Below are positions 24,447 to 48,648 of a stretch of DNA of 64,000 nucleotides, piece by piece. The stretch comes from Sphingobacteriales bacterium (lineage in GTDB: Bacteria > Bacteroidota > Bacteroidia > Sphingobacteriales > Sphingobacteriaceae). The stretch spans positions 18,850 to 82,849 of the forward strand of contig JAQBOG010000001.1 in NCBI GenBank assembly GCA_028288165.1, written 5' to 3'. The notes under the pieces are model-generated. The model made no database searches, was not told where the DNA came from, and worked only from the letters and a program-made list of their open reading frames with translations. Position 1 is the first letter of the stretch. Every line of letters starts with the position of its first letter. The position numbers and the translations under genes are program-made.

Positions 24447-24519
24447 AATAAACTGTACGTTGGCTCACATAAGTGGAATATATACGCTATAGACAGCGCA
24501 TATCCGCTAGTTAGCAAAC
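24447..24519 (+). other. Putative attI-like primary recombination site
   Basis: The 83 bp between the recombinase stop and the first cassette gene contain GCGCATATCCGCTAGTTAGC (ends 24514). The crossover-type GTTAGCAAAC (24510-24519) is the exact reverse complement of the left box of the first attC-like site (25105-25114). The phrase TATCCGCTAGTTAGC recurs almost unchanged at 58061-58077. Confidence 0.6.
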
Positions 24520-24530
24520 ATTTTAAAAAC

Positions 24531-25100
24531 ATGACATTCGGCAAAACCCGACTTATATCAATGACTTTGACCTTAGTCCTGCTGACTTTTTTGACTGGAT
24601 GCAATTTAAATTATTTATCGTATTGTCAACATCTTAAATCTCCAGATGGACAATACAATTACTGCCTTTATTTTGATGGTATTGGTATGGGCGATCCAGG
24701 TTTTTATGTTTTAAAACTTAAAAAAAATATTGACCCGGAAAAATTAAAAATTGACTGGAACTTTAAAACTGGAACGAAATCAGAAGACATCGACTGGATA
24801 AATAAACACCAAATTCTCTTTAATTATGATGAGGCTGGTCTTTTAACTTCTAACCCGAAAATAGAGTTAATAAACGAGCGACATATAGTTTTTTCGAGAG
24901 GTGGCTATTATTTCGGACTATACGATTTGGAATCCCAAAAAGATACTTTCAATATTGGTTCACCTTGGAATGAATTTCGTGAAAAAAGTGGGTATATAAG
25001 CGAAAAATATGATAAGAAAAAAGAAGAAAAAGCTTACGGACACTGGGTGAAATTGAATATAAGTGACAGAATAGCGGACTATATATCGACAAATAAATAA
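24531..25100 (+). CDS. Cassette 1: hypothetical lipoprotein
   Basis: A 189-residue protein with a signal peptide and lipobox LLTFLTGC (cysteine about 24), followed by a soluble domain rich in Lys, Tyr and Asp. It contains SPDGQYNYCLYFDG, a phrase like those in small immunity or host-surface lipoproteins, but no family can be named. It is the first gene of the array, 12 bases after the putative att site. Confidence 0.7.
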   Translation: MTFGKTRLISMTLTLVLLTFLTGCNLNYLSYCQHLKSPDGQYNYCLYFDGIGMGDPGFYVLKLKKNIDPEKLKIDWNFKTGTKSEDIDWINKHQILFNYDEAGLLTSNPKIELINERHIVFSRGGYYFGLYDLESQKDTFNIGSPWNEFREKSGYISEKYDKKKEEKAYGHWVKLNISDRIADYISTNK

Positions 25101-25104
25101 AAAC

Positions 25105-25239
25105 GTTTGCTAACAGCAGGTTTACATTATGCCCTGGCGAGGTGGTTCTTGTTCTGTTGTAGTTTTTAACAACTTTAGTGCTTGGGCGACAAAGAAGTAC
25201 TTTCTATTCGGGCACAACGCAAACCTGTAAACGTTAAGC
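25105..25239 (+). repeat. attC-like site 1
   Basis: Left box GTTTGCTAAC (25105-25114), right box GTTAAGC (25233-25239). Between them the arms CAGGTTT...TGCCC and GGGCACAACGCAAACCTG pair with unpaired bases in one arm only, as in integron attC sites. It is a member of the common long (~130 bp) type in this array. Confidence 0.8.
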
Positions 25240-25452
25240 ACAACCCTGCATTCTCAATCTACCATCGGTGCTAATTTTTTGATTTGATTTTGCGAGGCGG
25301 ATGGCGTGCCCAGTTCCATGAATGCATGTAGAGTTTCAGCTTTTAGAATTGCCCAATTTTAGAAAAGATCAAATTTTAAGACATTTTGTTGTTGAATAAA
25401 TAATAAAATTAGAGGCATGGATGAGGCGGTGCATGCAACACTAATAAGGGCA
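25240..25452 (+). other. Cassette 2: cassette without a recognisable gene
   Basis: The interval between attC-like sites 1 and 2 has no credible frame on either strand. Its start GTTAAGCAC (25233-25241) is the exact reverse complement of the left box of site 2, so it behaves as a complete cassette of about 347 bp. It may carry a promoter or RNA. Confidence 0.55.
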
Positions 25453-25588
25453 GTGCTTAACAATTATTTTGTGCAATGCCGGGTTTGTGATTATTGAAAG
25501 TCCGGTGGTTTCTAATATCTTTAGTGCGAAGCTTTTTGGGTTTGTGCTGTTTTTATCCGGCACTGCACAAAGCATCAACGTTAGTGGC
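25453..25588 (+). repeat. attC-like site 2
   Basis: Left box GTGCTTAAC (25453-25461), right box GTTAGTGGC (25580-25588). The inner arms TTTTGTGCAATGCCGG and CCGGCACTGCACAAA pair. The central sequence is unlike site 1, so the fold rather than the sequence is conserved. Confidence 0.78.
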
Positions 25589-25634
25589 AATGCTAACGAA
25601 GACCATTCAAAACAATTTTTCTTATTAAACTAAA

Positions 25635-26534
25635 ATGAACATTAACTTTTTTTCTAACTTATTTCTTTGGTTATCATTAATAACTTTACCAGAAATGGTA
25701 TTTTCTCAATCGGCCGACTTTACAATTCAAGATGTAAAGTTTGAAAGTCAGGGCGTCACTCTTGCAGGCTCAATTTTAACGCCTAAAAAAAAATTTGCAG
25801 CAGTTGTAATTGTTCATGGGTCTGATCCTGTAAAAAGAGAAATGGAGTTCGCTAAACGTCTTGCCAAAGAAGGTGTTGCTGTATTGACATACGATAAACG
25901 TGGAGTTGGAGAATCTGGTGGTGTATATGTAGGACCATCTGTTGGCACGAATAATATAGACACTACTAATCTTAATTTATTATCTCACGATGCAAGTGCA
26001 GCAGTAAATACATTTCGAACCTATTTGAAAGATAAAAAAACACCAATTGGATTAGTTGGCTTCAGTCAAGCAGGATGGATAATCCCAATTGCTGCAAGCA
26101 AAAATCCACAAATAGAATTTATGGTTTTATTTAGTTGCCCTACAATTACAACTCTAGAACAACTTCGATTTCAGTTTTATACTAATGGAAACAATAATTT
26201 TTGGGAAAATCATACAGAATCAGATGCTCGTGAACATACTAAAAATGACCCAGACAGGTATCAATTCGTGGGGACTGACCCAAAAATTTTTCTGAATACT
26301 CTTTCAATTTCAGGACTTTGGCTTTTTGGCGAGAAAGATATACAGATTCCAGTAAAGTTGTGTATAGAGCAATTAAATACATTGAAAGCTCAAGGCAAAC
26401 CTTTCGAATATACTTTGTTTTCTAAATTAGGACACAATACTGCTTTTGACAATGATACAGCACCTTTTGATATTTCAATTCAATGGATAAAGCAGAAAAC
26501 TTTGAACATTAAGAAGTCTAAAGTATCAAAATAA
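25635..26534 (+). CDS. Cassette 3: alpha/beta hydrolase
   Basis: A 299-residue secreted alpha/beta hydrolase. Signal peptide about 1-25 (ends FSQ). The oxyanion region is VIVHGSDP, the nucleophile serine is in GFSQAGW, the acid in GEKDIQIP and the histidine in LGHNTAF. The KRGVGESGG phrase is typical of the serine aminopeptidase/esterase group. Substrate unknown. It is a single-gene cassette between attC-like sites 2 and 3. Confidence 0.85.
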   Translation: MNINFFSNLFLWLSLITLPEMVFSQSADFTIQDVKFESQGVTLAGSILTPKKKFAAVVIVHGSDPVKREMEFAKRLAKEGVAVLTYDKRGVGESGGVYVGPSVGTNNIDTTNLNLLSHDASAAVNTFRTYLKDKKTPIGLVGFSQAGWIIPIAASKNPQIEFMVLFSCPTITTLEQLRFQFYTNGNNNFWENHTESDAREHTKNDPDRYQFVGTDPKIFLNTLSISGLWLFGEKDIQIPVKLCIEQLNTLKAQGKPFEYTLFSKLGHNTAFDNDTAPFDISIQWIKQKTLNIKKSKVSK

Positions 26535-26540
26535 AGCACT

Positions 26541-26677
26541 GCCTACAACATCGGTTTGGCAATATGGCGGCTGAAGTACTTCTATGAAACATTTGTGCAA
26601 GTTTCAACATTAGGAATTTTATTGAACTTTTGTGCTAAAAATCCGCCACATCGCCACGCCGAAAACCGTTATAAGCC
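26541..26677 (+). repeat. attC-like site 3
   Basis: Left box GCCTACAAC (26541-26549), right box GTTATAAGCC (26668-26677). The arms CGGTTTGGCAATATGGCGG and CCGCCACATCGCCACGCCG are complementary with extra bases in one arm. It belongs to a second sequence subtype (GGTTTGGCAATATGG), also seen at 59612. Confidence 0.78.
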
Positions 26678-26703: not shown

Positions 26704-27318
26704 ATGTTCGGACTATTTAAAAAGAAACTTCCTGACTGTGACGAACTTTTTGTGAAGTATCTTGCACGTTGGTACCCAGAGGAAGAAAGACCTAAAATGA
26801 CCAGACCTGATATGTATATAATTTCAGGTTATGAAGGGAAATCTCTTGACCTTTCATCGTTGCAATATTTACCTGACAAATTACTTGAGCAGACAAAGGA
26901 GCAAATTAGAACCATGGCAGGTGCTGCATTGGCGGACTACCAAGAAATAATAAAATCTGACCTACTCGACTTTAACGTCTTGGATGCAGTTGACAAATTT
27001 TATGACCGCCCAAAGATTGCAGAAATAATCAAAGAAAGTGACCCGAAAGACTATTTCAATTTGTATTTCGTAACTGTTTGTGAATTTGGTGCGACTTTGG
27101 GATATTTATATAACGAATTAGAAGGTTATGACTGGCTTTATTCATTCCCTTACTACCATTCAATAATTGTTCATCGAGACACAGGGTTTGGTATCACTGT
27201 ATTTGACTGGGCAGTAAAGAAGTTTAGTGAATATGGTGTTGATGATGGTTATGTTGCAAAATTTCATGCTGCAATGAATGGCATTAACGAGCATCAAGAA
27301 AAGAAAAACGGCTTATAA
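26704..27318 (+). CDS. Cassette 4: hypothetical cytosolic protein
   Basis: A 204-residue soluble protein with no signal peptide, starting FGLFKKKLPDCDELFVKY. The ATG at 26704 is chosen because the longer frame from 26632 would run back through attC-like site 3. It is acidic and helical with aromatic-rich segments (FNLYFVTVCEFGATLGYLYN). No family recognised. The stop codon lies inside the left box of the next attC-like site. Confidence 0.7.
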   Translation: MFGLFKKKLPDCDELFVKYLARWYPEEERPKMTRPDMYIISGYEGKSLDLSSLQYLPDKLLEQTKEQIRTMAGAALADYQEIIKSDLLDFNVLDAVDKFYDRPKIAEIIKESDPKDYFNLYFVTVCEFGATLGYLYNELEGYDWLYSFPYYHSIIVHRDTGFGITVFDWAVKKFSEYGVDDGYVAKFHAAMNGINEHQEKKNGL

Positions 27319-27402
27319 CAACTAGGGCTTCGTTGCGTGCGAAGCACGAACAATGAAGCCAGGGTTGCACGGAACCTTCGGTAGTTTTTTAGACGTTATG
27401 GG
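27310..27402 (+). repeat. attC-like site 4
   Basis: Left box GGCTTATAAC (27310-27319) is the exact reverse complement of the start of this cassette (26668-26677). The right box is GTTATGGG (27395-27402). At about 93 bp it is shorter than the main type. Confidence 0.72.
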
Positions 27403-27590
27403 TTTTACGGTTACTCGTTGTATTTTTCAGGTCAAGCCGTGTTGGCTTTTAGTTTGAATTTCAGATTTTCAAAGTCCTGTTTTCTTTTTTCTGGCTTCAT
27501 TCTCAAGAGGTTTAAGGCTCTTTTTCGGTAACAGATCGATCATTTATCTCTCATTTGGATCCTTGGGGCATAGCTCCGCCAGGCCGTATT

Positions 27591-28727
27591 TCAGCTGTTA
27601 TTTTCCATTCGTACAATTTCCATAAGTTGTGCATGGGACGGAGGGCCACGTTTAGGCAGGATTTCCAGATTGGTCATCGTTTGCGTTTTACAATGCGGGC
27701 AAAGTTTGGGGTTGTATGTTTCAAGGATTCGTGGCCCCACTGGCACTAATGTTTCTTTGGGGAACTGATCTTTAATCAGGGGGATAGCCTGTTTTTTACT
27801 GTTACTGCTGAGTATCCCGAAATGCCTGATACGGACAAAACCCTTGGGTAAAATGTGCATGGAAAACCTGCGGATGAACTCGATGGAATCTAGAGTCGTT
27901 AGGCTCTTTTGCGCTCCATTGCGGTAATCTTTATAACTGAAGGAGACCGTTTTGTGATCGATGTTTTTGATCCGGTGATTGCTGATGGCGATCTTATGGG
28001 TATACCTGCCCAGGTATTCCACCACGCTTTTTGGGTTGCCAAAGGGGCGTTTGGCAAATACCACCCACTCTTTTTTGAACAGGGAATCAATCAGGGATTT
28101 ACCCGGATTGATCCTGGCTTTAAGAGCTTCCACATATTTAGCCCGGAATACTTTGCTCATGGCCTTGACGGGGAAAAGGTATTTGCCTTTGCTTTTTGCC
28201 GTTTTCCACTTCCCTTGTTTAGAAATCCCGCCGCCGGGAACAATACAATGCAAATGAGGATGGAGGCTTACCTGTTGCCCCCAGGTATGTAAGATGGAAA
28301 TCATTCCGGTGGCTGCCCCCAGGTTCCTGGGATTATTTCCAAAGGTGCCGATGGTTCCCCAGGCGGCTTCAAACAGAGCATCATAAACAGCTTTGGGCTG
28401 GTGCAAGGCCAGCTGGTTCAGCGTATCGGGCAGTGTAAAAACCACGTGAAAATAAGGGACCGGCAAGAGCTCGGCTTCCCGGTTAGCGATCCAACGTTCC
28501 CTGTTTTTGCCCTGGCACTTTGGGCAATGGCGATTCCCGCAGCTATTATAGCTGATGCGCAGGATTCCACAATCCGTGCAGGCATCCACATGCCCGCCCA
28601 TGGCAGCGGTGCGGCAATTCTTTAAAGCACTCAATACCCGTACTTGCCAGGAATTGATCCCGGCATGGGTAAGCACCTGTGGCCAGTGTTTTTTCAAAAC
28701 ACCGGCCACCTCAAAATCAGGTTGCAA
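27591..28727 (-). CDS. IS91-family rolling-circle transposase
   Basis: A 378-residue transposase. The N-terminal zinc-binding region has CTDCGILR...CGNRHCPKCQG; the HUH motif is LHPHLHCIVPGGG; the catalytic tyrosines are in EYLGRYTHKIAIS, giving the YxxxY spacing of IS91. A second cysteine pair (LCPHC) is near the C-terminus. It starts with TTG directly after the stop codon of the recombinase gene (TAATTG), which suggests translational coupling. Confidence 0.9.
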   Translation of the reverse strand: MQPDFEVAGVLKKHWPQVLTHAGINSWQVRVLSALKNCRTAAMGGHVDACTDCGILRISYNSCGNRHCPKCQGKNRERWIANREAELLPVPYFHVVFTLPDTLNQLALHQPKAVYDALFEAAWGTIGTFGNNPRNLGAATGMISILHTWGQQVSLHPHLHCIVPGGGISKQGKWKTAKSKGKYLFPVKAMSKVFRAKYVEALKARINPGKSLIDSLFKKEWVVFAKRPFGNPKSVVEYLGRYTHKIAISNHRIKNIDHKTVSFSYKDYRNGAQKSLTTLDSIEFIRRFSMHILPKGFVRIRHFGILSSNSKKQAIPLIKDQFPKETLVPVGPRILETYNPKLCPHCKTQTMTNLEILPKRGPPSHAQLMEIVRMENNS

Positions 28728-29582
28728 TTAGGATTTACTGTAAAGGGTATCCAGCGGACTAAAAGGTTTCCTTCTGCCGGATTGAGCCACATGCAGATAA
28801 ACCATGGTGGTGTCGATGCACTCATGGCCCAACAAGTCTTTGATGGATATAATATCCAGCCCCTCTTCCAGCAGATGGGTGGCGAAGGTATGACGAAGGG
28901 TATGTACCGTCATTTCCTTAATAATGCCAGCCGCTTTTTTTGCTTCTTTCACCGCCCACTGCACCCCACGCTGGGAGTACCGGCCGTCAAAGTCACCTCC
29001 GGCCCGGCCATCTGGCTGACCGTTAAAGAGCCATTCTTCTGGGTTTTCTGCTTCGATGTACAAGCGGAGTCCCCGGATCAGGATAGGACTCAAGGGTACA
29101 TACCGATCTTTTTTGCCTTTCCCTTTTTGCACATGAAGCATCTGGCGGTCAAAGTCCAGATCTGCCAGCCTGACATTCCGGGCCTCAAAACAGCGTAAGC
29201 CACAACCATAGAGCAAACCAATTAGAATCCGGTGCTTGAGCAGTTTGGGCGCTTTTAGCAGGCGCTTCATTTCCTCTCTGCTCAATACAACGGGAAGTTT
29301 TTTCTCATGCCGAATGCTGGGCAGTTCAATGTGTTTATCTTTCAAACCCAACATCCGGAAGGCGAAACGCAGTCCATACACGGTGAACTTGAAATAGGAA
29401 TCAGAAAGCGTAGGGTGTTCCTGTTGTACCAGATACAGGTAATCATTGATCTGATCGGTGTCAAGGTCCGTAGGCAAACAACCGAAATGAAGAGCCATTT
29501 TCGCTAAATGGGTACTATAACCATTTAAGGTACTCCGGCTTTTGCCGGTGATAGAAACTTTCTGCTGCATCAGGGCATACAA
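28728..29582 (-). CDS. Tyrosine recombinase of the IS91 element
   Basis: A 284-residue XerC/D-like recombinase. It has an N-terminal SAM-like domain (SRSTLNGYSTHLAKM) and the catalytic boxes GLRCFEARN, HTLRHTFATHLLEEG, LLGHECIDTT and nucleophile tyrosine in MVYLHV. Such recombinases accompany IS91-family transposases in Bacteroidetes. It is a separate protein from the 473-residue recombinase at 23 kb and lacks that protein's N-terminal extension. Confidence 0.88.
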   Translation of the reverse strand: MYALMQQKVSITGKSRSTLNGYSTHLAKMALHFGCLPTDLDTDQINDYLYLVQQEHPTLSDSYFKFTVYGLRFAFRMLGLKDKHIELPSIRHEKKLPVVLSREEMKRLLKAPKLLKHRILIGLLYGCGLRCFEARNVRLADLDFDRQMLHVQKGKGKKDRYVPLSPILIRGLRLYIEAENPEEWLFNGQPDGRAGGDFDGRYSQRGVQWAVKEAKKAAGIIKEMTVHTLRHTFATHLLEEGLDIISIKDLLGHECIDTTMVYLHVAQSGRRKPFSPLDTLYSKS

Positions 29583-29736
29583 CTGGGAAAATCCAGCTAC
29601 ATTCGTACAAGCTGAGCTAATTAAGGTAGGACTATTGTCTTTTTTTTCATGATACTTATTTTGAAGGTTTGTTTCTGTAAAGAAAGCGGTTCTGCTTTAA
29701 TTTGCTAGGCTCGCTTGCAAAAACTACCGAAGGTTT

Positions 29737-29814
29737 AGTGCAACACATATTTTGCGCTATTTCCCAACGCTCTTTTGGCGACCGCTCACAGCGCAAACTA
29801 TAACCGTTAGCTGC
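29737..29814 (+). repeat. attC-like site 5
   Basis: Left box AGTGCAAC (29737-29744), right box GTTAGCTGC (29806-29814). Arms TTTTGCGCTATTT and AGCGCAAACTATAACC partly pair. The right box is the exact partner of the left box at 30429-30437. Confidence 0.6.
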
Positions 29815-29839: not shown

Positions 29840-30436
29840 ATGAATCACGGAATCGAAAAAGCTATTTCAGGACTTAGTGAATGTGCAAAGCATTATAAAA
29901 AGCAACATTTGATCAAGATTTCCAAGGAGACGATTATTGTTAAAGTCAATGATAATCAATTGTGGGGAACGCTGCTTTATTTACTGTTAATTATGTTAAC
30001 ACCGTTATTGATTCTCGTTTATTACCTATATGTTGATAACACTAATTCTGACATTTTCTGGGCTTTGATTTGGCTACTTTGGTTTGGTTATGAATTATAT
30101 AGAATTCTTCGTGGTGACAATATTTTAATAATCAATCTAGAAGGAAGATATTTTGAAGTTGAAAACATAAATGCTATTTTTAAAACGCTCGTCCGAAAAC
30201 GTAGAGTTTTGTTTTCTGACATAGCGAAAGCTAATATGGAAGAAAAATTTATTTATAGCAGGTATAGGAGAATTAAGTGGTACGAATTGACCATTTATGA
30301 CAAAGAAAAAAGCAGGATTGTATTATCAAGTTTCGATGAAAAGTTTCCTTTGCCATCAATTGGTAATCGAGTAAAGCTCATAGTTGACCTTATCTTAAAA
30401 GAACAAAAACAATTCATTAAAAGTAGCAGCAGCTAA
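29840..30436 (+). CDS. Cassette: hypothetical membrane protein
   Basis: A 198-residue protein with a short cytosolic N-terminus, two transmembrane helices (about 55-75 and 80-98) and a soluble C-terminal part rich in basic and aromatic residues (YSRYRRIKWYELTIYDK). This resembles membrane proteins with a PH-like tail, but the family is not certain. Single-gene cassette; its end overlaps the left box of the next site. Confidence 0.68.
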   Translation: MNHGIEKAISGLSECAKHYKKQHLIKISKETIIVKVNDNQLWGTLLYLLLIMLTPLLILVYYLYVDNTNSDIFWALIWLLWFGYELYRILRGDNILIINLEGRYFEVENINAIFKTLVRKRRVLFSDIAKANMEEKFIYSRYRRIKWYELTIYDKEKSRIVLSSFDEKFPLPSIGNRVKLIVDLILKEQKQFIKSSSS

Positions 30437-30446
30437 CATCAGTAGC
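30429..30446 (+). repeat. attC-like site 6, left part
   Basis: Left box GCAGCTAAC (30429-30437) pairs exactly with the start of this cassette (29806-29814). The site is cut off by an IS1182-type element after 30446 and resumes at 32142. Confidence 0.68.
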
Positions 30447-32141
30447 TGTTGCACAACGTTTTTATAAACAGAATTATTCCGATTTATTCCGCTAAATAAT
30501 GACAGCCCCTATTTATACTAAGCATTCGATGTATTAAACATTCAGGGCTGTTTGATCGCAGATAAAGAAGCGCAAACAGGTTGTTCTTGAGCTTTGTCAG
30601 ATCTTCCTGGATCATTGCTCTGATTTTATTCTTTTTTGGGGCATGTTTGAGCCATTTTTTAAGGTTGTATGCAATAGCCGCCCCGATCATAAATTTAGTT
30701 GCCTGCTGAATTCCCCTGGTCCAGATCCTGCGCATCCCGGTAAAGTTGATCAGCGTTCCCAACACCGGTTCGACCGTGGAGCTTCGGAGCTTTTTCATCC
30801 GTCTGGCTTTGGCCGTTTGCAGGCGCTCATGCATTTGATCGTAAAGTGCTTTGTCCACGGTTTCTGTAATACTTTTAAAATCCGCTTTGCCGATGCAAGT
30901 GCCCCGGAGCGGGCAATTACGGCAGTCCTTACTGCTGCTGCTGTAACGCTTCATTTGGTTTTTACCATGATAGCTACTTATTTTTTTGAATGTCAGGCTC
31001 GCTTTATTTCCCAGCTGACATTCATACCGGTCCAGCAGTTCATTGTAAACAAACCCTTCACGGGTGTTTTTGTATTGGCCAAAGTTGGGGATGTACCCTT
31101 CGATATTTTGTTTGTTAAGGTACTTCAATGCTTCCCCGCTGGAATAGCCGGTATCGGCTAATACCTCTTCAATGTGCAGATCATGTTCCCTTAAGTTCTC
31201 CTGTGCCTGGTCAATGGCTTTGGCTAAAGATTGGCTATCCCTTTTGTCACTATAATCGGCCATAATGGTGGTGATCACATGGCTGGACGTGTCGACCACT
31301 GTTTGAGCGGTATAGTTCAGCTGCCGTGGTTTTCCCGGTTTGACACTGATACGGGCATCCGGGTCGGTTTTGCTGTAATGGGTATGATTGCTTAAAAACC
31401 TGGGTCGTATCGTATTTCCATACTCATCCAGATCCCGGTCTTTGTTGGTATTTCCCTTATGCTGGTCTTTATACTCCTTGGTTTTCCATTGGTGATGTCC
31501 TTCTACTTCCCGCTTTTTGGCTGCACTTACGGTTTTGTTTTCTTCTTCTTCTTCATGGAGCCCATCCATATAGCTGTCGGCATCCTGGATGACCTGCTTT
31601 TCAATCAGGCTGTCCATGCTTGCATTGGCTTTGATGTAAGCACTGTCAATGGCCTGGCGTTTACCGTTGACCATTCCCTTGTTTACGCACAGGCGTAATA
31701 CTTCTTTAAATAACGCCCTGAATACTTCTTCCCCGAACAATTGGCGGGTTCGGCTGATCGTGCTATGCCATGGAAGGGCCTCATCGATGTCATACCCGAT
31801 AAAATAAAGCATATCCATGCGCATGCCCGCATGGGCCATGATTTTTCGGTCGCTGTTCAGGTTCTCCAGGTAACCGATCAAGATCAGCTTGAAAAACACA
31901 ACCGGATCGATGCTCGACTGCCCTTCCAAACCGTAATACTTGCGGGTGGTCTTCCGCAGGAAACCCAGGTCGAGTTCCTCTTTGAGCTTCCGGTAAAAAT
32001 TCTCAGCCGGGATCCGGTCCGATAACTGAAAATTCATGAAAAGCTTCTCGTTATAGTCTTTTTTGCCTTGCATGTCTTAAGTTACCCAATAACCGGTTTT
32101 TCACCTATCTTCACTTTTCAACAGGTGTGAGTTGTGCAACA
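30447..32141 (-). mobile_element. IS1182-type insertion sequence
   Basis: About 1.7 kb bounded by the exact 11-bp inverted repeats TGTTGCACAAC (30447-30457) and GTTGTGCAACA (32131-32141). AGC flanks both sides (30444-30446 and 32142-32144) and may be a short target duplication. It carries one transposase gene and interrupts an attC-like site. Confidence 0.78.
30484..32073 (-). CDS. IS1182-family DDE transposase
   Basis: A 529-residue transposase. The N-terminal DUF772-type domain has GLEGQSSIDPVVFFKLILIG, the first catalytic aspartate region is RQAIDSAYIKANASMDSL, the second VLADTGYSSGEAL, and the C-terminal glutamate region lies in SSTVEPVLGTLINFTGMRR. A zinc-like cysteine group (CRNCPLRGTC) precedes the last part. 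Length and motif order fit the intact family, so it is probably active. Confidence 0.9.
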   Translation of the reverse strand: MQGKKDYNEKLFMNFQLSDRIPAENFYRKLKEELDLGFLRKTTRKYYGLEGQSSIDPVVFFKLILIGYLENLNSDRKIMAHAGMRMDMLYFIGYDIDEALPWHSTISRTRQLFGEEVFRALFKEVLRLCVNKGMVNGKRQAIDSAYIKANASMDSLIEKQVIQDADSYMDGLHEEEEENKTVSAAKKREVEGHHQWKTKEYKDQHKGNTNKDRDLDEYGNTIRPRFLSNHTHYSKTDPDARISVKPGKPRQLNYTAQTVVDTSSHVITTIMADYSDKRDSQSLAKAIDQAQENLREHDLHIEEVLADTGYSSGEALKYLNKQNIEGYIPNFGQYKNTREGFVYNELLDRYECQLGNKASLTFKKISSYHGKNQMKRYSSSSKDCRNCPLRGTCIGKADFKSITETVDKALYDQMHERLQTAKARRMKKLRSSTVEPVLGTLINFTGMRRIWTRGIQQATKFMIGAAIAYNLKKWLKHAPKKNKIRAMIQEDLTKLKNNLFALLYLRSNSPECLIHRMLSINRGCHYLAE

Positions 32142-32271
32142 AGCACAGCAGGTTTAAATTATGCCCGGGTGACATGGTTCTTATTCTGTAATGGTTTTTA
32201 ACGAGATTGGTGCTTAGGCGACAGTGAAGTGCTTTTAATCGGGCACAATATAACCTGTAACCGTTATTGGC
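32142..32271 (+). repeat. attC-like site 6, right part
   Basis: Continues the interrupted site: CAGCAGGTTTAAATTATGCC on the left arm and GGGCACAATATAACCTG on the right arm, then right box GTTATTGGC (32263-32271). Sequence matches the common long type. Confidence 0.7.
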
Positions 32272-32392
32272 AATTTTAAAGACACACAGCCGATACGATG
32301 TAACATTTGTCCACAATTTGGAATGTTCTTGTTAAAATCAACCAATTAACTATTTTTGAATATTCACATTGCTTAGGTTGTATCCGATATAA

Positions 32393-35160: not shown

Positions 35161-35173
35161 CACGATGCTCACA

Positions 35174-39666: not shown

Positions 39667-39802
39667 CCCTTTCTAGGCTACAAAAAACTGGTGCTTTTCA
39701 GAAACACTCGTATTTAAGTTTAACTCTGCTTATTATGTCTTATTTGCTTCCTGCAACGTAACTTGATTTTAATATTTTTACAAAATAACTAAGCATAAAC
39801 GA

Positions 39803-40580: not shown

Positions 40581-40850
40581 ATGAAGACCAGAGAAAAAGC
40601 TTTTACAGGCTTTCTTGCGACGCTATTAACTTTTGTTATTGTGTATTTTGGAGTTCAGTTGTTTACAAGCGACCTTGTTTTATCAGGCACTCCAGGTTGG
40701 CATACAACAATTTATCCTTCAGAAATAATACTCACAAGGCTGACTTTTACAATCTTGGTGTTGACTCTAATTGTTTATTTAATTTATAGTCAGACTAGAA
40801 AAATATTGAATTTACTGTGGACAAGATTTAAGAATAAATATGCGGACTAA
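40581..40850 (+). CDS. Cassette: small membrane protein
   Basis: An 89-residue protein with two predicted helices (about 8-28 and 50-70) and a basic tail. No family recognised. The cassette boundaries (40528 and 40868) satisfy the complementarity rule exactly. Confidence 0.65.
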   Translation: MKTREKAFTGFLATLLTFVIVYFGVQLFTSDLVLSGTPGWHTTIYPSEIILTRLTFTILVLTLIVYLIYSQTRKILNLLWTRFKNKYAD

Positions 40851-40859
40851 AAAGCATCA

Positions 40860-40996
40860 GCCACTAACAGCAGGTTTAATTTATGCCCGGGCGACGTGGT
40901 TCTTGTTCTGTTCTGCTTTTTATTACTTTTAGTGCTCGGGCGACAGTGAAGTGCTATTAATTCGGGCACAACTCAAACCTGTAAACGTTTAGTGGC
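40860..40996 (+). repeat. attC-like site 8
   Basis: Left box GCCACTAAC (40860-40868), right box GTTTAGTGGC (40987-40996). The arms CAGGTTTAATTTATGCCCGG and CGGGCACAACTCAAACCTG pair strongly. A member of the main long type. Confidence 0.82.
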
Positions 40997-41060: not shown

Positions 41061-41336
41061 ATGACCTTAGAAACTCAATTGAGTATTGCTGCGACCTTTA
41101 TTCGAATTTCAATAGGTACAATGATTTTTGACGTCTTCTTTCCAATTATAGCGGGACCTGAAATTTCACATTATATTAATTTGTCGGCTTTATTCCTGAC
41201 GACTGTAGCAGTTACTATTTTATTAATACATCGTAAAGAAGTTGACTTTATTAAAGGAGGACTTCTTATTCAAATAATAATTAATCTTTGCCTCGGAATT
41301 GGACTTTGGGTTATTAATTACGGTTATTTTAATTGA
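41061..41336 (+). CDS. Cassette: small membrane protein
   Basis: A 91-residue protein that is mostly three hydrophobic helices with short loops (IAATFIRISIGTMIFDVFF, LSALFLTTVAVTILLIH, GGLLIQIIINLCLGIGLW). No known family. It starts at the ATG 65 bases after the previous site. Confidence 0.62.
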   Translation: MTLETQLSIAATFIRISIGTMIFDVFFPIIAGPEISHYINLSALFLTTVAVTILLIHRKEVDFIKGGLLIQIIINLCLGIGLWVINYGYFN

Positions 41337-41379
41337 CTTTTAATACGTTTTTTAGTTGACCATACAAAAATGACTAATG

Positions 41380-41442
41380 AGAAAGACACAGAGAAGTGCT
41401 TTCTATTCGCCATCTTCGCAAAGCCCTAACCGGTTATATGCC
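41380..41442 (+). repeat. attC-like site 9, right half
   Basis: Only the right side is clear: GAAGTGCTTTCTATTCGCCA through AACCGGTTATATGCC, right box GTTATATGCC (41433-41442). It pairs with the left box at 42189 with one mismatch. A related right half (CTATCCTCAATCTTCGCAAA) occurs near 48611. Confidence 0.55.
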
Positions 41443-41448: not shown

Positions 41449-42216
41449 ATGAACGATAGGATAAACATAGAAGAACGGAAACCTATTTGGATAGCTTTAT
41501 CTGAATTTTATCTTGACACTGAACTTCAAGAATCGGACTTCAGACACATTGCTTTCAAAATTATTGAAAGTCCGTATTCTATTGATGAAGTTAAGGATAT
41601 TAACAAATATGAAGTCTTTCCTGTGCTACAACCAAATCTTCTAAGCGTAGTGGGAGAATGGGCAGGATTTGACAAGGAATGGCTCATCAGCAGTATCTTA
41701 GATTCGTTAGCTAAAAGAAACGTGATTAAAAAACTTGGAATCGAAAGTTCATTCTTGACCCTTAAGTGGATGCAAAAGAATTATTGGGAAAAACTCGAGA
41801 AAGTTTATAATCAGGTAAAAACTAATCCTGACTCATTCATATTAACTTGTAAAGAGATTTGGAAGAATGGAATTGAACCATTTGAGTTTCAGCAAAAGGA
41901 TGCTCAGCTATTTGAAAGACTAAAAGGAATTGCTGCATCTTTCAAAGAACAAAATAGACTAACTGCCTTCTACCAATATCTGCAAGAAGGACAATATTGG
42001 ATAAACCTTTGGACTGCCTACTTCCTGCTGGAGCTATTTGAATTGAAGGACTCCGACAAACTGATAGGGCTTAATGACAATGAAAAGATTTTTGATTTCT
42101 GTTTAAATGAGGTTGAACAGAATCAACAATACTTAAAAACTGAACAGGCAAAAGTGAATTGCAGAAATTGGATTGAAAATAAAAAAACGGCATACAACAA
42201 AACCTATGAGCAATAA
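41449..42216 (+). CDS. Cassette: DUF7079-like protein
   Basis: A 255-residue cytosolic protein. The N-terminal half resembles DUF7079-type proteins (PIWIALSEFYLDTELQ, EVFPVLQPNLLSVVGEWAGF); the rest is acidic and helical with many aromatic residues. The function is unknown and the family assignment is from memory. The 3' end overlaps the short attC-like site. Confidence 0.65.
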   Translation: MNDRINIEERKPIWIALSEFYLDTELQESDFRHIAFKIIESPYSIDEVKDINKYEVFPVLQPNLLSVVGEWAGFDKEWLISSILDSLAKRNVIKKLGIESSFLTLKWMQKNYWEKLEKVYNQVKTNPDSFILTCKEIWKNGIEPFEFQQKDAQLFERLKGIAASFKEQNRLTAFYQYLQEGQYWINLWTAYFLLELFELKDSDKLIGLNDNEKIFDFCLNEVEQNQQYLKTEQAKVNCRNWIENKKTAYNKTYEQ

Positions 42217-42259
42217 CGCCCTACGGGACGCTACTGCTCATAGGCAAACCGTTAGCAGT
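42189..42259 (+). repeat. attC-like site 10 (short type)
   Basis: Left box GGCATACAAC (42189-42198), right box GTTAGCAGT (42251-42259). Arms CCTATGAGCA and TGCTCATAGG form a perfect 10-bp stem. At 71 bp it is the shortest site and overlaps the end of the preceding gene. Confidence 0.8.
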
Positions 42260-42279: not shown

Positions 42280-43080
42280 ATGACGACACAAATAGTTATA
42301 GTTCTAATCCTGACTTTTGTAATTAACTTAATTACAACACTTTCATATTCGGTAAGAATAGTAGGAATTAGGACGGGTAGAGTAGCTATTTCATTCGCCC
42401 TTTTTAATATTCTTGTTTTAGTATCAAGGACTGCAAATGGTTTTCAAGCACCACTGCTTGCTAAGACAGTTGAAAACGATATAAAAATTGGAGTATTTGA
42501 CAATTTAGAAACTTTTCGACTAATAATACTTTCTTGCTCTATTGCCACAATCCTTGGTGCATGGCTCATTCCTACCTTTCAAAGAGTTTTATCAAAAGCA
42601 GTAATTAATTTCAGCATTCACAAATCAATGGGGAAACTGATACTTCATAGTTTTTCTAAAGCAGGCATTCTATACTTTAAAGACAATATGACTATTCCGA
42701 CCAAGCTGAATATTTCGCAAATAAAACTTGACCGTGAATTTCCTTGGAGAATTTTCATACTAAATATTTTTGCTGTTGCCATTTTGACTATAGGGGTTCT
42801 TTCTGCTGTTTATGCATCATATTTAAATCCGGATTATAGGACAACGGCTAGTAATTTATCGGCATTTGTAAATGGTTTTGCGACAATATTAATGTTTGCA
42901 TTTATTGATCCGCATTTATCGGCAATGACTGACGATGTAACTTTAGGTCAATGTTCAGAGACCACTTTTAGGAAATACATAGTGTATATGATAATTGCTC
43001 GCGTAATTGGGACAATTTTAGCTCAAGTATTATTTTTACCAAGTGCACAATTATTAGCGTGGGCAGCGACACATATATAG
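42280..43080 (+). CDS. amj: Amj-type lipid II flippase family protein
   Basis: A 266-residue integral membrane protein matching the Amj family (DUF2837), which can flip lipid II across the inner membrane in place of MurJ. The characteristic beginning is seen: VINLITTLSYSVRIVGIRTG, VAISFALFNILVLVSRTANG and FQAPLL. The C-terminal part has YASYLNPDYRTTASNLSAFV and FAFIDPHLSAMTDD. As a cassette gene it could protect against inhibitors of MurJ; that is inference. Confidence 0.88.
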   Translation: MTTQIVIVLILTFVINLITTLSYSVRIVGIRTGRVAISFALFNILVLVSRTANGFQAPLLAKTVENDIKIGVFDNLETFRLIILSCSIATILGAWLIPTFQRVLSKAVINFSIHKSMGKLILHSFSKAGILYFKDNMTIPTKLNISQIKLDREFPWRIFILNIFAVAILTIGVLSAVYASYLNPDYRTTASNLSAFVNGFATILMFAFIDPHLSAMTDDVTLGQCSETTFRKYIVYMIIARVIGTILAQVLFLPSAQLLAWAATHI

Positions 43081-43097
43081 ACAAAGAAAATGAGCAG

Positions 43098-43232
43098 CTG
43101 CTGACAGCAGGTTTAAATTATGCCCGGGTGATGTGATTCTTGTTCTGTTCTGCTTTTTATTTACTTTTAGTGCTTGGCAACAGGGAAGTGCTTTCTATTC
43201 GGGCACAACGCAAACCTGTAAACGTCAGACTG
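43098..43232 (+). repeat. attC-like site 11
   Basis: Left box CTGCTGAC (43098-43105), right box GTCAGACTG (43224-43232). The arms CAGGTTTAAATTATGCCCGG and CGGGCACAACGCAAACCTG match the main type. The right box departs from GTTAG, probably because the next small element is inserted at the crossover position. Confidence 0.75.
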
Positions 43233-43336
43233 TCTAAAAACCGTGATTTGACGATTTGCTCTACGGGTACCTATCTTAGCAAAAAGCCGAATATGAAAAT
43301 CTCAGGCGTTAGCTTTTAGTTTTTAGACAGACTGAC
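43224..43336. repeat. 113-bp element with inverted ends at the crossover
   Basis: It begins GTCAGACTGTCTAAAAAC and ends GTTTTTAGACAGACTGAC, arms pairing with one mismatch over 18 bases. Removing it would restore AAC followed by GTTAGGGC, a normal right box. It has no gene and may be a minimal cassette or a MITE using the site. Confidence 0.6.
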
Positions 43337-43388: not shown

Positions 43389-43658
43389 ATGGTTACAGCT
43401 TTATTCATCGGACTTTTTCTTTTTTATCTGACCTACACGACCATATTTGCCATAAAATTTAATAGGACTTCTAGAATTTTTAACAAAAAACAGCAATTAG
43501 TTCACAATATTTTAATTTGGGTTTTACCATTCGTTTGGGTAGTGATTTTAAAAAGTTTAATAAAGCCAGTTAGGACTAAAAAATCAAAGCTAGGCAACTT
43601 CTATGAAAGTGAATTAGGTTTTATGGCTAATGTGACTAATGAGACAAAAGCGGACTAA
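43389..43658 (+). CDS. Cassette: small membrane protein
   Basis: An 89-residue protein with two hydrophobic helices (about 2-22 and 38-60) and a basic loop, ending in a polar tail. No family recognised. The cassette start GTTAGGGC (43337-43344) is exactly complementary to its left box at 43668-43675. Confidence 0.63.
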   Translation: MVTALFIGLFLFYLTYTTIFAIKFNRTSRIFNKKQQLVHNILIWVLPFVWVVILKSLIKPVRTKKSKLGNFYESELGFMANVTNETKAD

Positions 43659-43667
43659 AGAAAACGA

Positions 43668-43801
43668 GCCCTAACATCAGGTTTAAATTATGCCCGGCCA
43701 ACGTGGTTCTGGTTCTGTAGTGCTTTTTATTTACTTTAGTAATATGCGGCAATGAAGTGCCTTCTAATCGGGCACAATATAAACCTGTAATCGTTAACTG
43801 C
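43668..43801 (+). repeat. attC-like site 12
   Basis: Left box GCCCTAAC (43668-43675), right box GTTAACTGC (43793-43801). Arms CAGGTTTAAATTATGCCCGG and CGGGCACAATATAAACCTG pair; main type. Confidence 0.83.
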
Positions 43802-43850: not shown

Positions 43851-44453
43851 ATGAATAAATATAAGGACGACCTTAAGACCATTTTTCAAGTCTCGACTTA
43901 TATTTTCATATCTATGAGTTTTGCGACAATGGATCATCCAATACTTTCTTACACTTTCATAGGACTTTTTATCGTCTCAATAGCATATGAGCTATACTCA
44001 AAAATGCAATACAGAAAAGGAAAAGCTAATTATGTATTATTTCCGACCTTAAATGATCTATATTCCAAAATGACCTCAATCACCATAGGTCTTATGGCAA
44101 TTGCTGCATCAATTATTGCTATTATTTGGACTAATACTTTTAATCATTATTGTGTTATTGGACTTTGTGTAGGTTTATTAGTCTTTCTAAATGGCATTTT
44201 TGATTTACCCAATGGACTAATAAAAATCAAAGATAATTCTCTTGTTATAACTGGTTTAAAAACTAATGTTGACCAAAGACAACTTAAAGAAATTAAAATA
44301 TTTAAGGAGAAAATATTGTTGACCAATGTTTACGATGAATTGATAAGAATTGACAATTTCAAAATTGACTCAAAATCAGCAAAATTAATTGGCTCATATC
44401 TAACTGAACACAAAACCAATATTGAGTTGAAAATAATAAACAACGTCAATTAA
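43851..44453 (+). CDS. Cassette: hypothetical membrane protein
   Basis: A 200-residue protein with four predicted helices in its first 120 residues and a soluble C-terminal part (DNSLVITGLKTNVDQRQL onward) that could be a small beta domain. No family recognised. Both cassette ends match exactly (43793 and 44542). Confidence 0.68.
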   Translation: MNKYKDDLKTIFQVSTYIFISMSFATMDHPILSYTFIGLFIVSIAYELYSKMQYRKGKANYVLFPTLNDLYSKMTSITIGLMAIAASIIAIIWTNTFNHYCVIGLCVGLLVFLNGIFDLPNGLIKIKDNSLVITGLKTNVDQRQLKEIKIFKEKILLTNVYDELIRIDNFKIDSKSAKLIGSYLTEHKTNIELKIINNVN

Positions 44454-44541: not shown

Positions 44542-44678
44542 GCAGTTAACATAAGGTTTAAGTTATGCACGGGAGACGTGGTTCTTGTTCTGTTGTGCTT
44601 TTTATTACTTTTAGTGCTCGGGCGACAAAGAAGTGCTATTTATTCGGGCACAATATAAACCTATAACCGTTATCGGTT
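44542..44678 (+). repeat. attC-like site 13
   Basis: Left box GCAGTTAAC (44542-44550), right box GTTATCGGTT (44669-44678). Arms AAGGTTTAAGTTATGCACGG and CGGGCACAATATAAACCT pair. A second GACCTAACGGC word at about 44475 may be a remnant of another site. Confidence 0.82.
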
Positions 44679-44690: not shown

Positions 44691-45572
44691 ATGCAACCAC
44701 GACATATTGTATACTTAGGATTGCTTCTGACGGCTTGTACTAATTCAACACAAACGACATCGCAAAAGAGCTCAAATAAATGTGACTCTGTAGGGCGAAA
44801 AGAGTCTATCCAAGGAACAAAAAAGATAAATATCGAAAAGGTAGATACTATTTCAAAGACTACCGATTTAACAAAAAAAGAAACAAGTGTAAATAGTGCA
44901 GAAGTTGTGCATTTGTTTGATGGAGATGTATTAGATAAACTTCCAAAATTCACGTTCAATACAATCACTAAAAGTGAGTTTTTTAGTGATGAAAAGATAC
45001 CGACTCTAATCACCGACCGAACAAAAACCAAATCAACTGATTCATCTTTTACAGTAGCAACAGCCAAGGCGAAACTGAAATTCAATAAAGAATATAATAA
45101 AAATTACTCAAAAAGAGATGGCTTATCTTGGACTGACTACCATGGATTTTTTGATGAATTGAAACTATATGTACTAAGCTCAAATTATATTACAGAGGGA
45201 TTGGAGTTCAGTTCAATGTTTTTTATTGATAGTACTACCAACGTAAGATATGAACTTACATCCCAATTTGACGAAGGCTATCAAGTTCCTCTTCTATCCC
45301 CCAATAATAAATTTATGGTATTATATGCTAATGTTATAGCGACGAGAGAAAGTGAAAACAGTTTTATTGGAGTTTTAAAAATTTCCGATACAGATAATGT
45401 CCGACATTACAAGGAGTTTGCAGGGTTTACAAGCACGAAATGGAATATTGAATCAGTTATTTGGATAAATGAAACATCATTTGCATTGAAAATTAATCGA
45501 CCCAAATATTCCGGCGACAAAATCATCAATAATTATAGTTATTTAAAAGCGACCTTGCCAATGAGCAGATGA
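44691..45572 (+). CDS. Cassette: hypothetical lipoprotein
   Basis: A 293-residue protein with signal and lipobox LLLTAC (cysteine about 16), a long Ser/Thr/Lys linker, and a soluble domain (about 110-290) with beta-strand-like phrases (YQVPLLSPNNKFMVLYANVI, WNIESVIWINETSFALKINR). It may be a beta-propeller-like or immunity-type lipoprotein; no family is named. Ten-base cassette-end match is exact. Confidence 0.7.
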   Translation: MQPRHIVYLGLLLTACTNSTQTTSQKSSNKCDSVGRKESIQGTKKINIEKVDTISKTTDLTKKETSVNSAEVVHLFDGDVLDKLPKFTFNTITKSEFFSDEKIPTLITDRTKTKSTDSSFTVATAKAKLKFNKEYNKNYSKRDGLSWTDYHGFFDELKLYVLSSNYITEGLEFSSMFFIDSTTNVRYELTSQFDEGYQVPLLSPNNKFMVLYANVIATRESENSFIGVLKISDTDNVRHYKEFAGFTSTKWNIESVIWINETSFALKINRPKYSGDKIINNYSYLKATLPMSR

Positions 45573-45580: not shown

Positions 45581-45706
45581 AACCGATAACATCAGGTTTA
45601 AATTATGCCCGGAGACGTGGTTCTTGTTCTGTTGTGCTTTTTAATTACTTTAGTGCTTGGGCGATAGTGTAATCAGGCACAATATAAACCTATCAACATT
45701 AACTGC
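45581..45706 (+). repeat. attC-like site 14
   Basis: Left box AACCGATAAC (45581-45590), right box ATTAACTGC (45698-45706) with A for the usual G. Main type but slightly shortened in the centre. Confidence 0.8.
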
Positions 45707-45712: not shown

Positions 45713-46210
45713 ATGAATGCACGACTCATCATACTGTTCCTGCTGACCTTGCTTGGAATCAGCTGTTCAAATTTAGATACTAGGACCTTGCCTTCCGCTT
45801 TGGGACAAGAAAATGCAAAGGAAACAGCAGATTCTAATAGTAAAGATGGTAAATCTCAACTTTCCATTCCTGCCGACCTTGATTCGAAATTTGAAACATT
45901 CATAAAATACTTTAGTAAAGACTCTGTATTTCAAGTTAGTCGCATTGACTTTCCATTGAAAGTTAAAAATGTAGATGAGGAAAACGAACAAGAAATAATT
46001 ATAAAAAAATCCCAATTTCATAAACAGGACTTTGACGATAAGACGACCGAAACCAGAGAGTTTGACAAATATAAACAGGAGATTAAAGTAAACAGAAATA
46101 AAGCTATTGTTGAAATAAGAGGAATAGATAACGGAATCTATATTGACGTCTATTTCGAAAAGAAAAACAACAAATGGAAATTACTGACTTGGGTCGACTC
46201 ATCGGACTAA
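45713..46210 (+). CDS. Cassette: DUF4348-like lipoprotein
   Basis: A 165-residue lipoprotein (lipobox LLGISC, cysteine about 18). After a polar linker it has FETFIKYFSKDSVFQVSRIDFPLKV and a C-terminal DVYFEKKNNKWKLLTWVDSS, a pattern like DUF4348 lipoproteins of Bacteroidetes. Function unknown; assignment is moderate. Single-gene cassette. Confidence 0.72.
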   Translation: MNARLIILFLLTLLGISCSNLDTRTLPSALGQENAKETADSNSKDGKSQLSIPADLDSKFETFIKYFSKDSVFQVSRIDFPLKVKNVDEENEQEIIIKKSQFHKQDFDDKTTETREFDKYKQEIKVNRNKAIVEIRGIDNGIYIDVYFEKKNNKWKLLTWVDSSD

Positions 46211-46219: not shown

Positions 46220-46353
46220 GCAGTTAACATCAGGTTTAAATTAGGCCCGGTGACGTGGTTCTTCTTCTGTTCTCCTTTTTATTTACTTTAGTGCTCGGGC
46301 GAGAGAGAAGTGCTTTTAATCGGGCACAATATAAACCTGTGACCATCACCGGC
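46220..46353 (+). repeat. attC-like site 15 (degenerate right box)
   Basis: Left box GCAGTTAAC (46220-46228). The right end reads CCATCACCGGC (box 46345-46353 ATCACCGGC) instead of GTTAxxGGC. It still matches the left box at 48021-48029 at 8 of 9 positions. Main type. Confidence 0.72.
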
Positions 46354-47382: not shown

Positions 47383-47428
47383 GCGGGCTTATGCTTACAC
47401 TTTTTATAGTTGTTCTAAGCTCTGTTAA

Positions 47429-47644
47429 TCAACTCATCACATCCTACATTATACACCAGATTACTTTACCAATGTAATTGAACATACAGTCAAAACAGGC
47501 ATGTTTACGCAGGAACAAGCCGAACAACAATTCAGTATCAAAAATTATCTGATTACAAGTGCGGTTGGAGGTTTAGTAACAGGTATTATTTTCAGTGCTA
47601 TCATTTCATTTTTCACCAAATCAAAAACAAATAATCATGAGTAA
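47429..47644 (+). pseudogene. Remnant of DUF4199-like membrane protein
   Basis: A start-less frame ends with DYFTNVIEHTVKTGMFTQEQ, then KNYLITSAVGGLVTGIIF and a lysine-rich end at the TAA 47642. This resembles the C-terminus of DUF4199 membrane proteins. Its stop overlaps the ATG of the next gene (ATGAGTAA), so they were once translationally coupled. Confidence 0.5.
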
Positions 47645-47996
47645 GACAACTAAAATTGATGAGTTTGTAAGCAAGCTCAAACATCCCTTAAAAGCTGAAA
47701 TAGAAGCGGTAATAAAAATTATCCGTGAAACCAGTCCTAAGATTGAAGAAGATGTAAAATGGGGCGGTCCGAGTTTTGACTACAAAGAACCAATGGCAAC
47801 ATTTAATCCAAGAGTAACAGATTTTGTAGCAGTGATTTTTCATAAAGGCGAGCTATTAAATGACAAAACGGGACTTCTCGAACCGGGGCCTAAAGGTAAA
47901 GCGTATGCCAAATTCCATTCAATGGAAGAAGTGAAAAAGCACAAAGCGAATGTTCAAAAAGTAGTAAGAGACTGGATAGAACTAATGAATAGTTAG
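47637..47996 (+). CDS. DUF1801 family protein
   Basis: A 119-residue cytosolic protein of DUF1801 (YdhG-like), with LKAEIEAVIKIIRETSPKIEE, VKWGGPSFDYKEPM and the C-terminal VVRDWIELM. Function unknown. The ATG at 47637 is chosen over a longer frame from 47595, which would read through the preceding remnant. Confidence 0.86.
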   Translation: MSKTTKIDEFVSKLKHPLKAEIEAVIKIIRETSPKIEEDVKWGGPSFDYKEPMATFNPRVTDFVAVIFHKGELLNDKTGLLEPGPKGKAYAKFHSMEEVKKHKANVQKVVRDWIELMNS

Positions 47997-48020
47997 TGTG
48001 ATACGGATGACAAAATGCCA

Positions 48021-48157
48021 GCCGGTAATAGCGGTTTGGCGCAAGCGGAGGTTTAGTGCTTCGTATGACGGTTTTTCTTAAATTTGAACATTGCCGCCTC
48101 GTAAGGAAGTTTAGTAGTGAAAGTCACAGCCTGCGCCAAGCCTCACCGTTATCTGCT
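48021..48157 (+). repeat. attC-like site 16
   Basis: Left box GCCGGTAAT (48021-48029), right box GTTATCTGC (48149-48157). The arms CGGTTTGGCGCAAGCGG and CTGCGCCAAGCC pair; related to the GGTTTGGC subtype. Confidence 0.75.
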
Positions 48158-48247
48158 AATTTTTAATGATCAACTTTAAGCCACCAATAGCAACCAGGAC
48201 TACTAAATAGTTGTTAAAGATTGTTGGAGCCGTTGAAAAATGGAACG

Positions 48248-48550
48248 ATGAAGCAGTCAGTCGAACAAGCGAGAGTTGAATTAGAATTAAGAAACGTTCC
48301 TCAAGACCAAATACAACACGCAGAATACCTTTCCAAAAAAACAGATAGATATGAAGACTTGAAAAGAGCCAAAGAATCATATTCGGTTTGTGATTTTATC
48401 TTTGAACCTGCCGGGACTATTTTTGAAGTACTCGTTTCATGGGAATTGAAGAAAGACGGCTTTTTGAAGAAAGCAGAACAACAAAAGCGACTTAGAATCA
48501 TCTTCGGACTTATGATTTTAATTGTAGTAATCTACATAAAGCTGACCTAA
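48248..48550 (+). CDS. Cassette: small protein with C-terminal membrane helix
   Basis: A 100-residue protein with a charged helical N-terminal part and one hydrophobic helix near the end (IIFGLMILIVVIYI), a tail-anchored layout. A TTG at 48221 could extend it by nine residues. No family recognised. Cassette-end match 8 of 9. Confidence 0.6.
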   Translation: MKQSVEQARVELELRNVPQDQIQHAEYLSKKTDRYEDLKRAKESYSVCDFIFEPAGTIFEVLVSWELKKDGFLKKAEQQKRLRIIFGLMILIVVIYIKLT

Positions 48551-48569
48551 TTGAATAGAAATAAAATCA

Positions 48570-48648
48570 GCAGGTAACACTTTAATATTTGGGCTACAAT
48601 GAGTTGCTTTCTATCCTCAATCTTCGCAAACCCCTAACCGGAAATAGA
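48570..48648 (+). repeat. attC-like site 17 (degenerate)
   Basis: Left box GCAGGTAAC (48570-48578); right part ends AACCGGAAATAG (to 48648) where GTTAT would be expected. The centre CTTTCTATCCTCAATCTTCG resembles site 9. After this site the array can no longer be followed until about 52.5 kb. Confidence 0.55.

Follow-up and report, generated by a model that had tools for sequence, protein, structure and literature searches.

The 64,000-nucleotide stretch considered here (hereafter the window), from contig JAQBOG010000001.1 of the Sphingobacteriales bacterium assembly GCA_028288165.1, carries short, mutually unrelated genes on one strand directly behind a tyrosine recombinase gene, and the question that it raises is whether this locus is an integron and, if so, what kind of recombinase it uses. 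Integrons are a principal cassette-capture device of bacteria, and the domain specific to their integrase, IntI, is regarded as needed. With a probability of roughly 0.9, the locus has the anatomy of an integron, namely a recombinase gene, an attI-like point with the exchange position G^TT and same-strand cassettes with attC-like ends, and the recombinase likely moves cassettes at G^TT. A first-pass annotation of the window had already proposed a chromosomal integron-like cassette array, and that proposal is supported by cassette turnover bounded by G^TT and by clustered same-strand sites; it did not mention the recombinase at 23028-24446, attI, or the non-canonical status of the integrase. 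The window belongs to the draft genome of a Pedobacter relative, with 3.69 Mb in 42 contigs and a completeness of 68.6%.

The insertion point and cassette turnover

The recombinase gene lies directly 5' of the cassette array, on the array strand, and the array begins right behind it, at 24510:

23028..24446, +: tyrosine recombinase, 472 aa (Pfam PF00589, 139 bits; PF13495 below cut-off)
24447..24511, +: attI-like site, predicted exchange point G^TT at 24510/24511 (motif common to relatives; end of the alignment with the relative G015)

The attI-like motif of the window, TAT..CTAG^TTA, is common to relatives. In a set of 80 loci taken from named records, the motif TATA..AG^TT[AG], which was written after part of the loci had been viewed, was found behind the recombinase stop in 65 cases; among 1600 random windows it occurred in 97, and among 79 upstream regions in 5. 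In the three pairs of relatives that were compared, agreement extends to G^TT and stops there. Between the window and G015, a genome of the same genus with an 81% identical recombinase, the alignment stops at 24513, which is the GTTA itself, and the next 1.5 kb compared is unaligned. Flavobacterium sp. NRK F7 (L166) and G177, a genome from the genus of Flavobacterium sp. 7A, have recombinases that are 98.6% identical and are also syntenic upstream of them (91% over 8.8 kb and 96% over 1.4 kb); they diverge at G^TT, and the 6.6 and 10 kb compared past it contain four alignments of 84-190 nt, all at sites. Two Chryseobacterium plasmids give an 89.7% alignment up to GTT and are different past it.

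Individual cassettes are also common to otherwise different arrays. Flavobacterium denitrificans (L136) and a Bacteroidia metagenome-assembled genome (L140) have one cassette in common, 94% alike over 1435 nt and with the same G^TT start, between flanks that are 20% alike. Altogether 26 common cassettes were seen, 12 of them from duplicate records and 14 between different genomes; among these pairs, L098/L100 and L087/L146 are same-genus pairs, and in the latter the upstream neighbouring site is alike as well (0.85 over 60 nt). Duplicated cassettes occur within array L105 (520/520 nt identical) and within array L249 (99.5% over 568 nt). For 104 cassettes out of 115, the longest open reading frame (ORF) runs in the direction of the array. 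These comparisons point to two integron traits, a predicted insertion point beside the recombinase gene at which cassettes enter at G^TT, and the gain and loss of cassettes between relatives. Variation between close relatives had been named in the first-pass annotation as a check on the array; the turnover was indeed found, with identity ending at the predicted G^TT.

The attC-like sites

The covariance model (CM) of the sites rests on 38 diverse examples, 2 of them from the window, and has 137 positions and 16 pairs; the 38 aligned sites were drawn from 62 selected out of 121 with inner pairing, themselves out of 220. Site length is mostly 125-130 nt, with 127 nt as the commonest value. Among the 38 sites, 15 of the 16 consensus pairs show pair-keeping changes on both sides, and the paired boxes are thus kept in structure more than in sequence, which is a trait of attC. 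A covariance search with a model from such sites, also proposed at the outset, returned 15 window sites at E <= 0.0015, every one on the + strand and lying between 25106 and 60476, and the description of unrelated same-strand genes each followed by a 3' palindrome is thereby confirmed. Further degenerate sites are readable by eye at 27311-27403, 30429, 40528, ~41360-41436 and 43337. Genome-wide, the model gave 31 matches at E <= 1, of which 25 lie on four contigs (C42 13, C26 5, C8 4, C10 3), on one strand within each contig, and 6 are single; a random scatter between core genes, which the first-pass annotation had named as a refutation of the array, was not seen. When the core pattern was searched for with as many as 3 mismatches allowed, 8 places came within 1 mismatch of it, and 7 of these are inside the array.

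Complementarity to the cassette's own 5' end

An integron cassette leaves as a circle and re-enters at G^TT, and its 5' letters are thereby separated from the site with which they pair. If circles are opened at G^TT in this way, each site should therefore have a left arm that pairs with the 5' end of the cassette that it closes; in a linear array, those 5' letters form the right end of the site before it. In the arrays of relatives (L195, L145, L144 and L216 left out), a site scan that ignored the variable arm letters found 160 sites in 58 arrays, compared with 15 in one shuffle of each, and of the 86 consecutive pairs, 54 had six variable letters that fitted the own 5' end without a mismatch, compared with 2 when the same linear site and 2 when a random site was taken instead. 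On contig C7 of the same-genus genome G015 (15.4 kb), where the 19 sites were chosen by the CM, the own-end match is exact in 17 of 18 cases. An earlier left-arm scan had given 237 candidates at lengths of 122-131 compared with 9 in one shuffle, and 780 compared with 214 over all lengths, counts that include duplicate records (L052/L195, L086/L145) and several left-arm candidates per site; there were small excesses at other lengths too, for example at 38 nt. Of the two scans, the one over 58 arrays is the cleaner test.

A first chain search that required GTTA at every junction was abandoned, the longest chain in the window being 2 (tag length 8, 1 mismatch). Its weakness in the window is attributed to decayed junctions and to interruption by insertion sequence (IS) elements. 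The same search also produced reverse-strand chains, because the own-end rule is symmetric, and the strand was therefore taken from the CM, attI and ORFs instead.

Seven consecutive sites occur at G013:C92:311273-315693 (L250), with own ends exact in 4 of 6 cases and with one mismatch in the other 2; this is a same-genus genome without a strong recombinase match, and hence a site cluster without integrase.

Layout of the array

The features behind the attI-like site are as follows:

24531..25100, +: cassette 1 gene, lipoprotein-like, weak DUF5412
25106..25241, +: attC-like site 1 (CM 94.5 bits); left arm is the reverse complement of its own cassette 5' end at 24510, 0/6 mismatches
25453..25588, +: attC-like site 2, closing the ORF-less cassette 25233-25579 (CM 80.5 bits; own-end exact)
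25635..26534, +: cassette gene, alpha/beta hydrolase (PF12146)
26541..26676, +: attC-like site 3, core unlike site 1 (CM 95.6 bits; own-end 3/6 mismatches)
26704..27318, +: cassette gene, no Pfam match
27311..27403, +: degenerate site by sequence, left arm GGCTTATAAC complementary to its own cassette 5' end at 26668; missed by the CM at E <= 1
27591..29582, -: IS91 transposase with its own Xer-like recombinase, inserted in the array (NF033538, 444 bits)
29736..29814, +: truncated site abutting the IS91 end (CM E 0.0015)
29840..30436, +: cassette gene, no Pfam match; left arm 30429-30437 complementary to GTTAGCTGC at 29806
30484..32073, -: IS1182 transposase inside a site (NF033551, 320 bits)
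32139..32271, +: rest of the site split by IS1182 (CM 65.5 bits)
40581..40850, +: cassette gene, small protein; 5' end GTTAGTGGC at 40528
40860..40996, +: attC-like site (CM 92.4 bits); by sequence, left arm GCCACTAAC matches its own cassette 5' end at 40528
41061..41336, +: cassette gene, small protein
41449..42216, +: cassette gene, DUF7079
42190..42259, +: short attC-like site (CM 39.1 bits)
42280..43080, +: cassette gene, Amj (alternate to MurJ) (PF10997, 313.7 bits)
43097..43232, +: attC-like site (CM 70.6 bits)
43389..43658, +: cassette gene, small protein
43667..43801, +: attC-like site (CM 80.8 bits); left arm matches its own cassette 5' end GTTAGGGC at 43337
43851..44453, +: cassette gene, no Pfam match
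44542..44677, +: attC-like site, own-end exact (CM 85.1 bits)
44691..45572, +: cassette gene, no Pfam match, lipoprotein-like start
45582..45706, +: attC-like site, own-end exact (CM 69.9 bits)
45713..46210, +: cassette gene, DUF4348
46220..46353, +: attC-like site, own-end exact (CM 74.1 bits)
48021..48156, +: attC-like site (CM 61.8 bits); six variable letters match the end of the preceding site, junction ATC and not GTT
53102..53243, +: outlying weaker site (CM 31.6 bits)
60350..60476, +: outlying weaker site (CM 43.2 bits)

The array had been described as running through the whole of 24447..48648 and, in damaged form, to about 61 kb, and both parts of this description hold to a limited extent. 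Sites occur on either side of 32272-40527; that stretch has no significant covariance-model site and contains an acyltransferase gene, an AraC gene, other genes and Flavo-1 RNAs, so that it is not shown to consist of cassettes, and the array is broken up by the insertion sequences IS1182 and IS91, the latter with a recombinase of its own. Past 48156, the damaged continuation amounts to the two weaker sites at 53102-53243 and 60350-60476. The ORF-less units predicted among the cargo are present at 25233-25579 and 43224-43336, neither of which has an ORF of 60 aa, and the hydrolase and Amj attributed to it are borne out by PF12146 and PF10997, alongside lipoprotein-like genes and small proteins.

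Points against an active integron

Several observations weigh against the interpretation of the locus as a working integron. The attI motif as written is absent from 15 of the 80 loci, and 24 of the 86 consecutive pairs in the relatives' arrays have at least 3 mismatches. In the window itself, the own-end match to the preceding CM site is exact in 6 of the 15 CM sites, a low number that is explained by the IS insertions, decayed junctions and sites missed by the CM, and one of these six matches sits behind an ATC junction instead of GTT. Single-strand folds of three sites, on both strands, are no stabler than shuffles (z 0.05 to -1.44), and the case for hairpins thus rests on covariation and not on energy. 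Such unexceptional folds would suit palindromes that are passive intergenic elements, such as terminators or repeats resembling repetitive extragenic palindromes, with no recombination at all. Passive elements, however, leave no room for complementarity to the own 5' end, for the sharing and duplication of cassettes or for breaks at G^TT, and the clusters lie on one strand; this explanation is extremely improbable.

A further difficulty comes from the genus of the window genome. The recombinase (E <= 1e-50) is present in 9 of its 20 genomes, the window genome included, and all 9 carry 2-48 sites; yet 6 of the 11 genomes without a recombinase match at this threshold still carry 1-12 sites. The sites can therefore persist alone or be moved by something else, and these genomes resemble clusters of attC without integrase (CALIN). 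Applied to the window, such a reading would have leftover cassettes moved by XerC/XerD, by the IS91 recombinase or by an IntI encoded elsewhere, with the adjoining gene as a bystander, and other recombinases are indeed encoded in the window genome. A bystander is hard to reconcile with the attI motif behind the recombinase in 65 of 80 loci and with an identity break that falls in attI behind that gene, and the window genome, although only 68.6% complete, has no match above the IntI cut-off. The bystander explanation is accordingly judged to be quite unlikely, and the adjoining recombinase remains the favoured agent of cassette movement.

The recombinase

The recombinase carries a ~75-aa N-terminal domain in duplicate, at residues ~3-62 and ~103-162, besides a core-binding domain and a catalytic domain. 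A structure model shows a repeated strand-strand-helix-strand-strand-helix, and the N-terminal domain has only weak HARP/XPB-like matches. The catalytic half resembles archaeal XerA (PDB 4a8e) and IntI (2a3v), its best neighbours in both sequence and fold being of the XerA type. On the IntI model TIGR02249, the window protein scores 192.9 bits, below the cut-off of 265, and the region of the IntI insertion (profile positions ~180-240) is unmatched. The archaeal model NF040815 (recomb_XerA_Arch) gives 206.3 bits, below its cut-off of 220, and the curated XerC and XerD models give 183.3 of 329.6 and 179 of 335.15 bits, below both cut-offs.

It is conceivable that the locus is an ordinary integron with a diverged IntI, in which the insertion was lost secondarily, or that the enzyme is a member of a broad subgroup of integron-like recombinases. 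In a tree of 66 rows, a single clade (100/100), separate from XerC and XerD, unites IntI with the recombinase family and two IS91-type recombinases, as this explanation would predict; the branching order inside that clade, including its deep forks, is left open, and a single clade for the family is neither required nor rejected (approximately unbiased test, p 0.48). The nearest NCBI model, NF040815, is titled 'site-specific tyrosine recombinase/integron integrase' and is above cut-off in 4 of 9 relatives (220.9-233.3 bits), not in the window protein. In addition, the IntI insertion is described as essential yet not fully conserved in the integron-like subgroup treated in the available part of PMC8138268, while the corresponding part of PMC9668308 describes it as unique to IntI and necessary. 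Against a diverged IntI, the ten canonical IntI rows form a clade of their own (100/100) that excludes all 38 family rows and the window protein. Catalytic boxes I and II stand 91-92 apart in 38 of 38 family rows compared with 133 in IntI (measurable in 3 of 10 IntI rows), so that none of the family has the longer IntI spacing, and the window protein and 9 relatives reach only 188-209 of the 265 bits of TIGR02249. A diverged IntI thus appears doubtful, and the window recombinase is best described as not an IntI by the tests applied and as integron-integrase-like by the predicted anatomy of its locus.

In the mechanism favoured here, this recombinase would insert and excise cassettes at G^TT, the folded single strand of the site would be its substrate, as in integrons, and the extra N-terminal domain may help to read the folded DNA.

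Distribution in Bacteroidia

Despite the scarcity of canonical IntI in the class, the recombinase family is widespread there. A strong family match (E <= 1e-100) is present in 79 of 197 class genomes and 52 of 118 genera, as a count of recombinase genes and not of arrays, compared with canonical IntI above cut-off in 1 of 197; phylum-wide, canonical IntI is found in 84 of 296 genomes, all but one outside the class. Integrons have been reported from Bacteroidota (PMC8618304 and PMC9668308, in their available parts), and the part of the IntegronFinder 2.0 paper available (PMC9024848) names one complete integron in Bacteroidetes proper, that of Salinibacter ruber M1. It is an evenly balanced proposition that Bacteroidia own a second integron lineage, with a non-IntI recombinase, a downstream attI and a presence in about two-fifths of genomes, in which the folded site would be read by a HARP/XPB-like N-terminal domain (duplicated here) and not by the IntI insertion. 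By the share of class genomes with a strong family match, about 40%, a gene-capture system thought to be rare in Bacteroidia is probably common. No description of such a lineage was found in the open-access literature, a scope outside which preprints and most subscription papers fall. If this proposal is true, a class in which canonical IntI is rare (1/197) has a common system that IntI-based searches miss, the requirements on a recombinase for using such sites become directly testable, and a large cassette pool is opened to study; the system also has plasmid-borne forms.

Within the family of the window genome, the locus of G037 is identical to that of Pedobacter glucosidilyticus DSM 23534. 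Plasmid-borne recombinases were also observed: among L246, L247 and L248, Chryseobacterium sp. SNU WT5 has 5 sites at E <= 0.01, whereas the C. oryzae plasmid (L247) has the recombinase and the attI motif with no site at E <= 0.01 in the stretch searched. The plasmid pls1 of Pontibacter kalidii has the recombinase and an attI-like motif, again with no site at E <= 0.01 in the stretch searched.

Insertion elements and other repeats

The IS1182 element of the window (30429-32160) lies inside the left arm of an attC-like site, and the Pedobacter glucosidilyticus array, too, has an IS1182-type end sequence, TGTTGCACAAC, in a left arm close to where its contig ends (L052 9230-9260), as if attC-like sites were preferred IS1182 targets. 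The element formed by IS91 and its Xer-like recombinase (27591-29760) abuts the AACA of a window site, and on contig C26 (L054 1-130) the same IS91 end borders on the AACA of another site; on the Chryseobacterium oryzae plasmid L247, an IS91-recombinase pair adjoins the recombinase.

Seven copies of the Flavo-1 RNA (RF01705) are present in the window, at 33538-33618, 36063-36143, 39593-39683 and 51455-51545 and three at 9927-16786, and three of the seven lie in the site-free gap of the array. Repeats at 52622-52937, 51096-51347, 48778-48890 and 50033-50201 comprise a 24-nt tandem (in a small gene), a 21-nt tandem and short ones of ~7 nt. Three copies of a repeated stretch (57302-57690, 61930-62315 and 63740-64000) open with a common palindrome, CTTGGTCTGTGTC..CACAGACC.

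Comparison with known systems

Among Xer-type enzymes, which resolve chromosome dimers, XerA and archaeal Xer (NF040815, PDB 4a8e) are the closest sequence and fold neighbours of the catalytic half, but they have no cassette array. The IS91-associated Xer-like recombinases belong to the same large tree clade, and one sits in the window array; unlike the recombinase described here, they are 277-280 aa long, lack the N-terminal domain and, in the window, stand beside an IS91 transposase. For the N-terminal domain, the damage-recognition domains of HARP/XPB offer a weak lead. In the chromosomal integrons of Treponema, as in this locus, transcription of the recombinase gene runs towards attI and the cassettes (PMC3607928, available part), although Treponema has an intI gene as commonly defined. 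The sedentary chromosomal integrons (IntI/attI/attC) differ in that here the recombinase is outside the IntI clade, has no IntI insertion and carries an extra N-terminal domain, and in that the sites are mostly 125-130 nt long. What they share with the present locus is a recombinase beside the insertion site, an array on one strand, palindromic sites with GTT as the exchange triplet, the presence of ORF-less cassettes, turnover of cassettes among relatives, and occurrence on plasmids as well.

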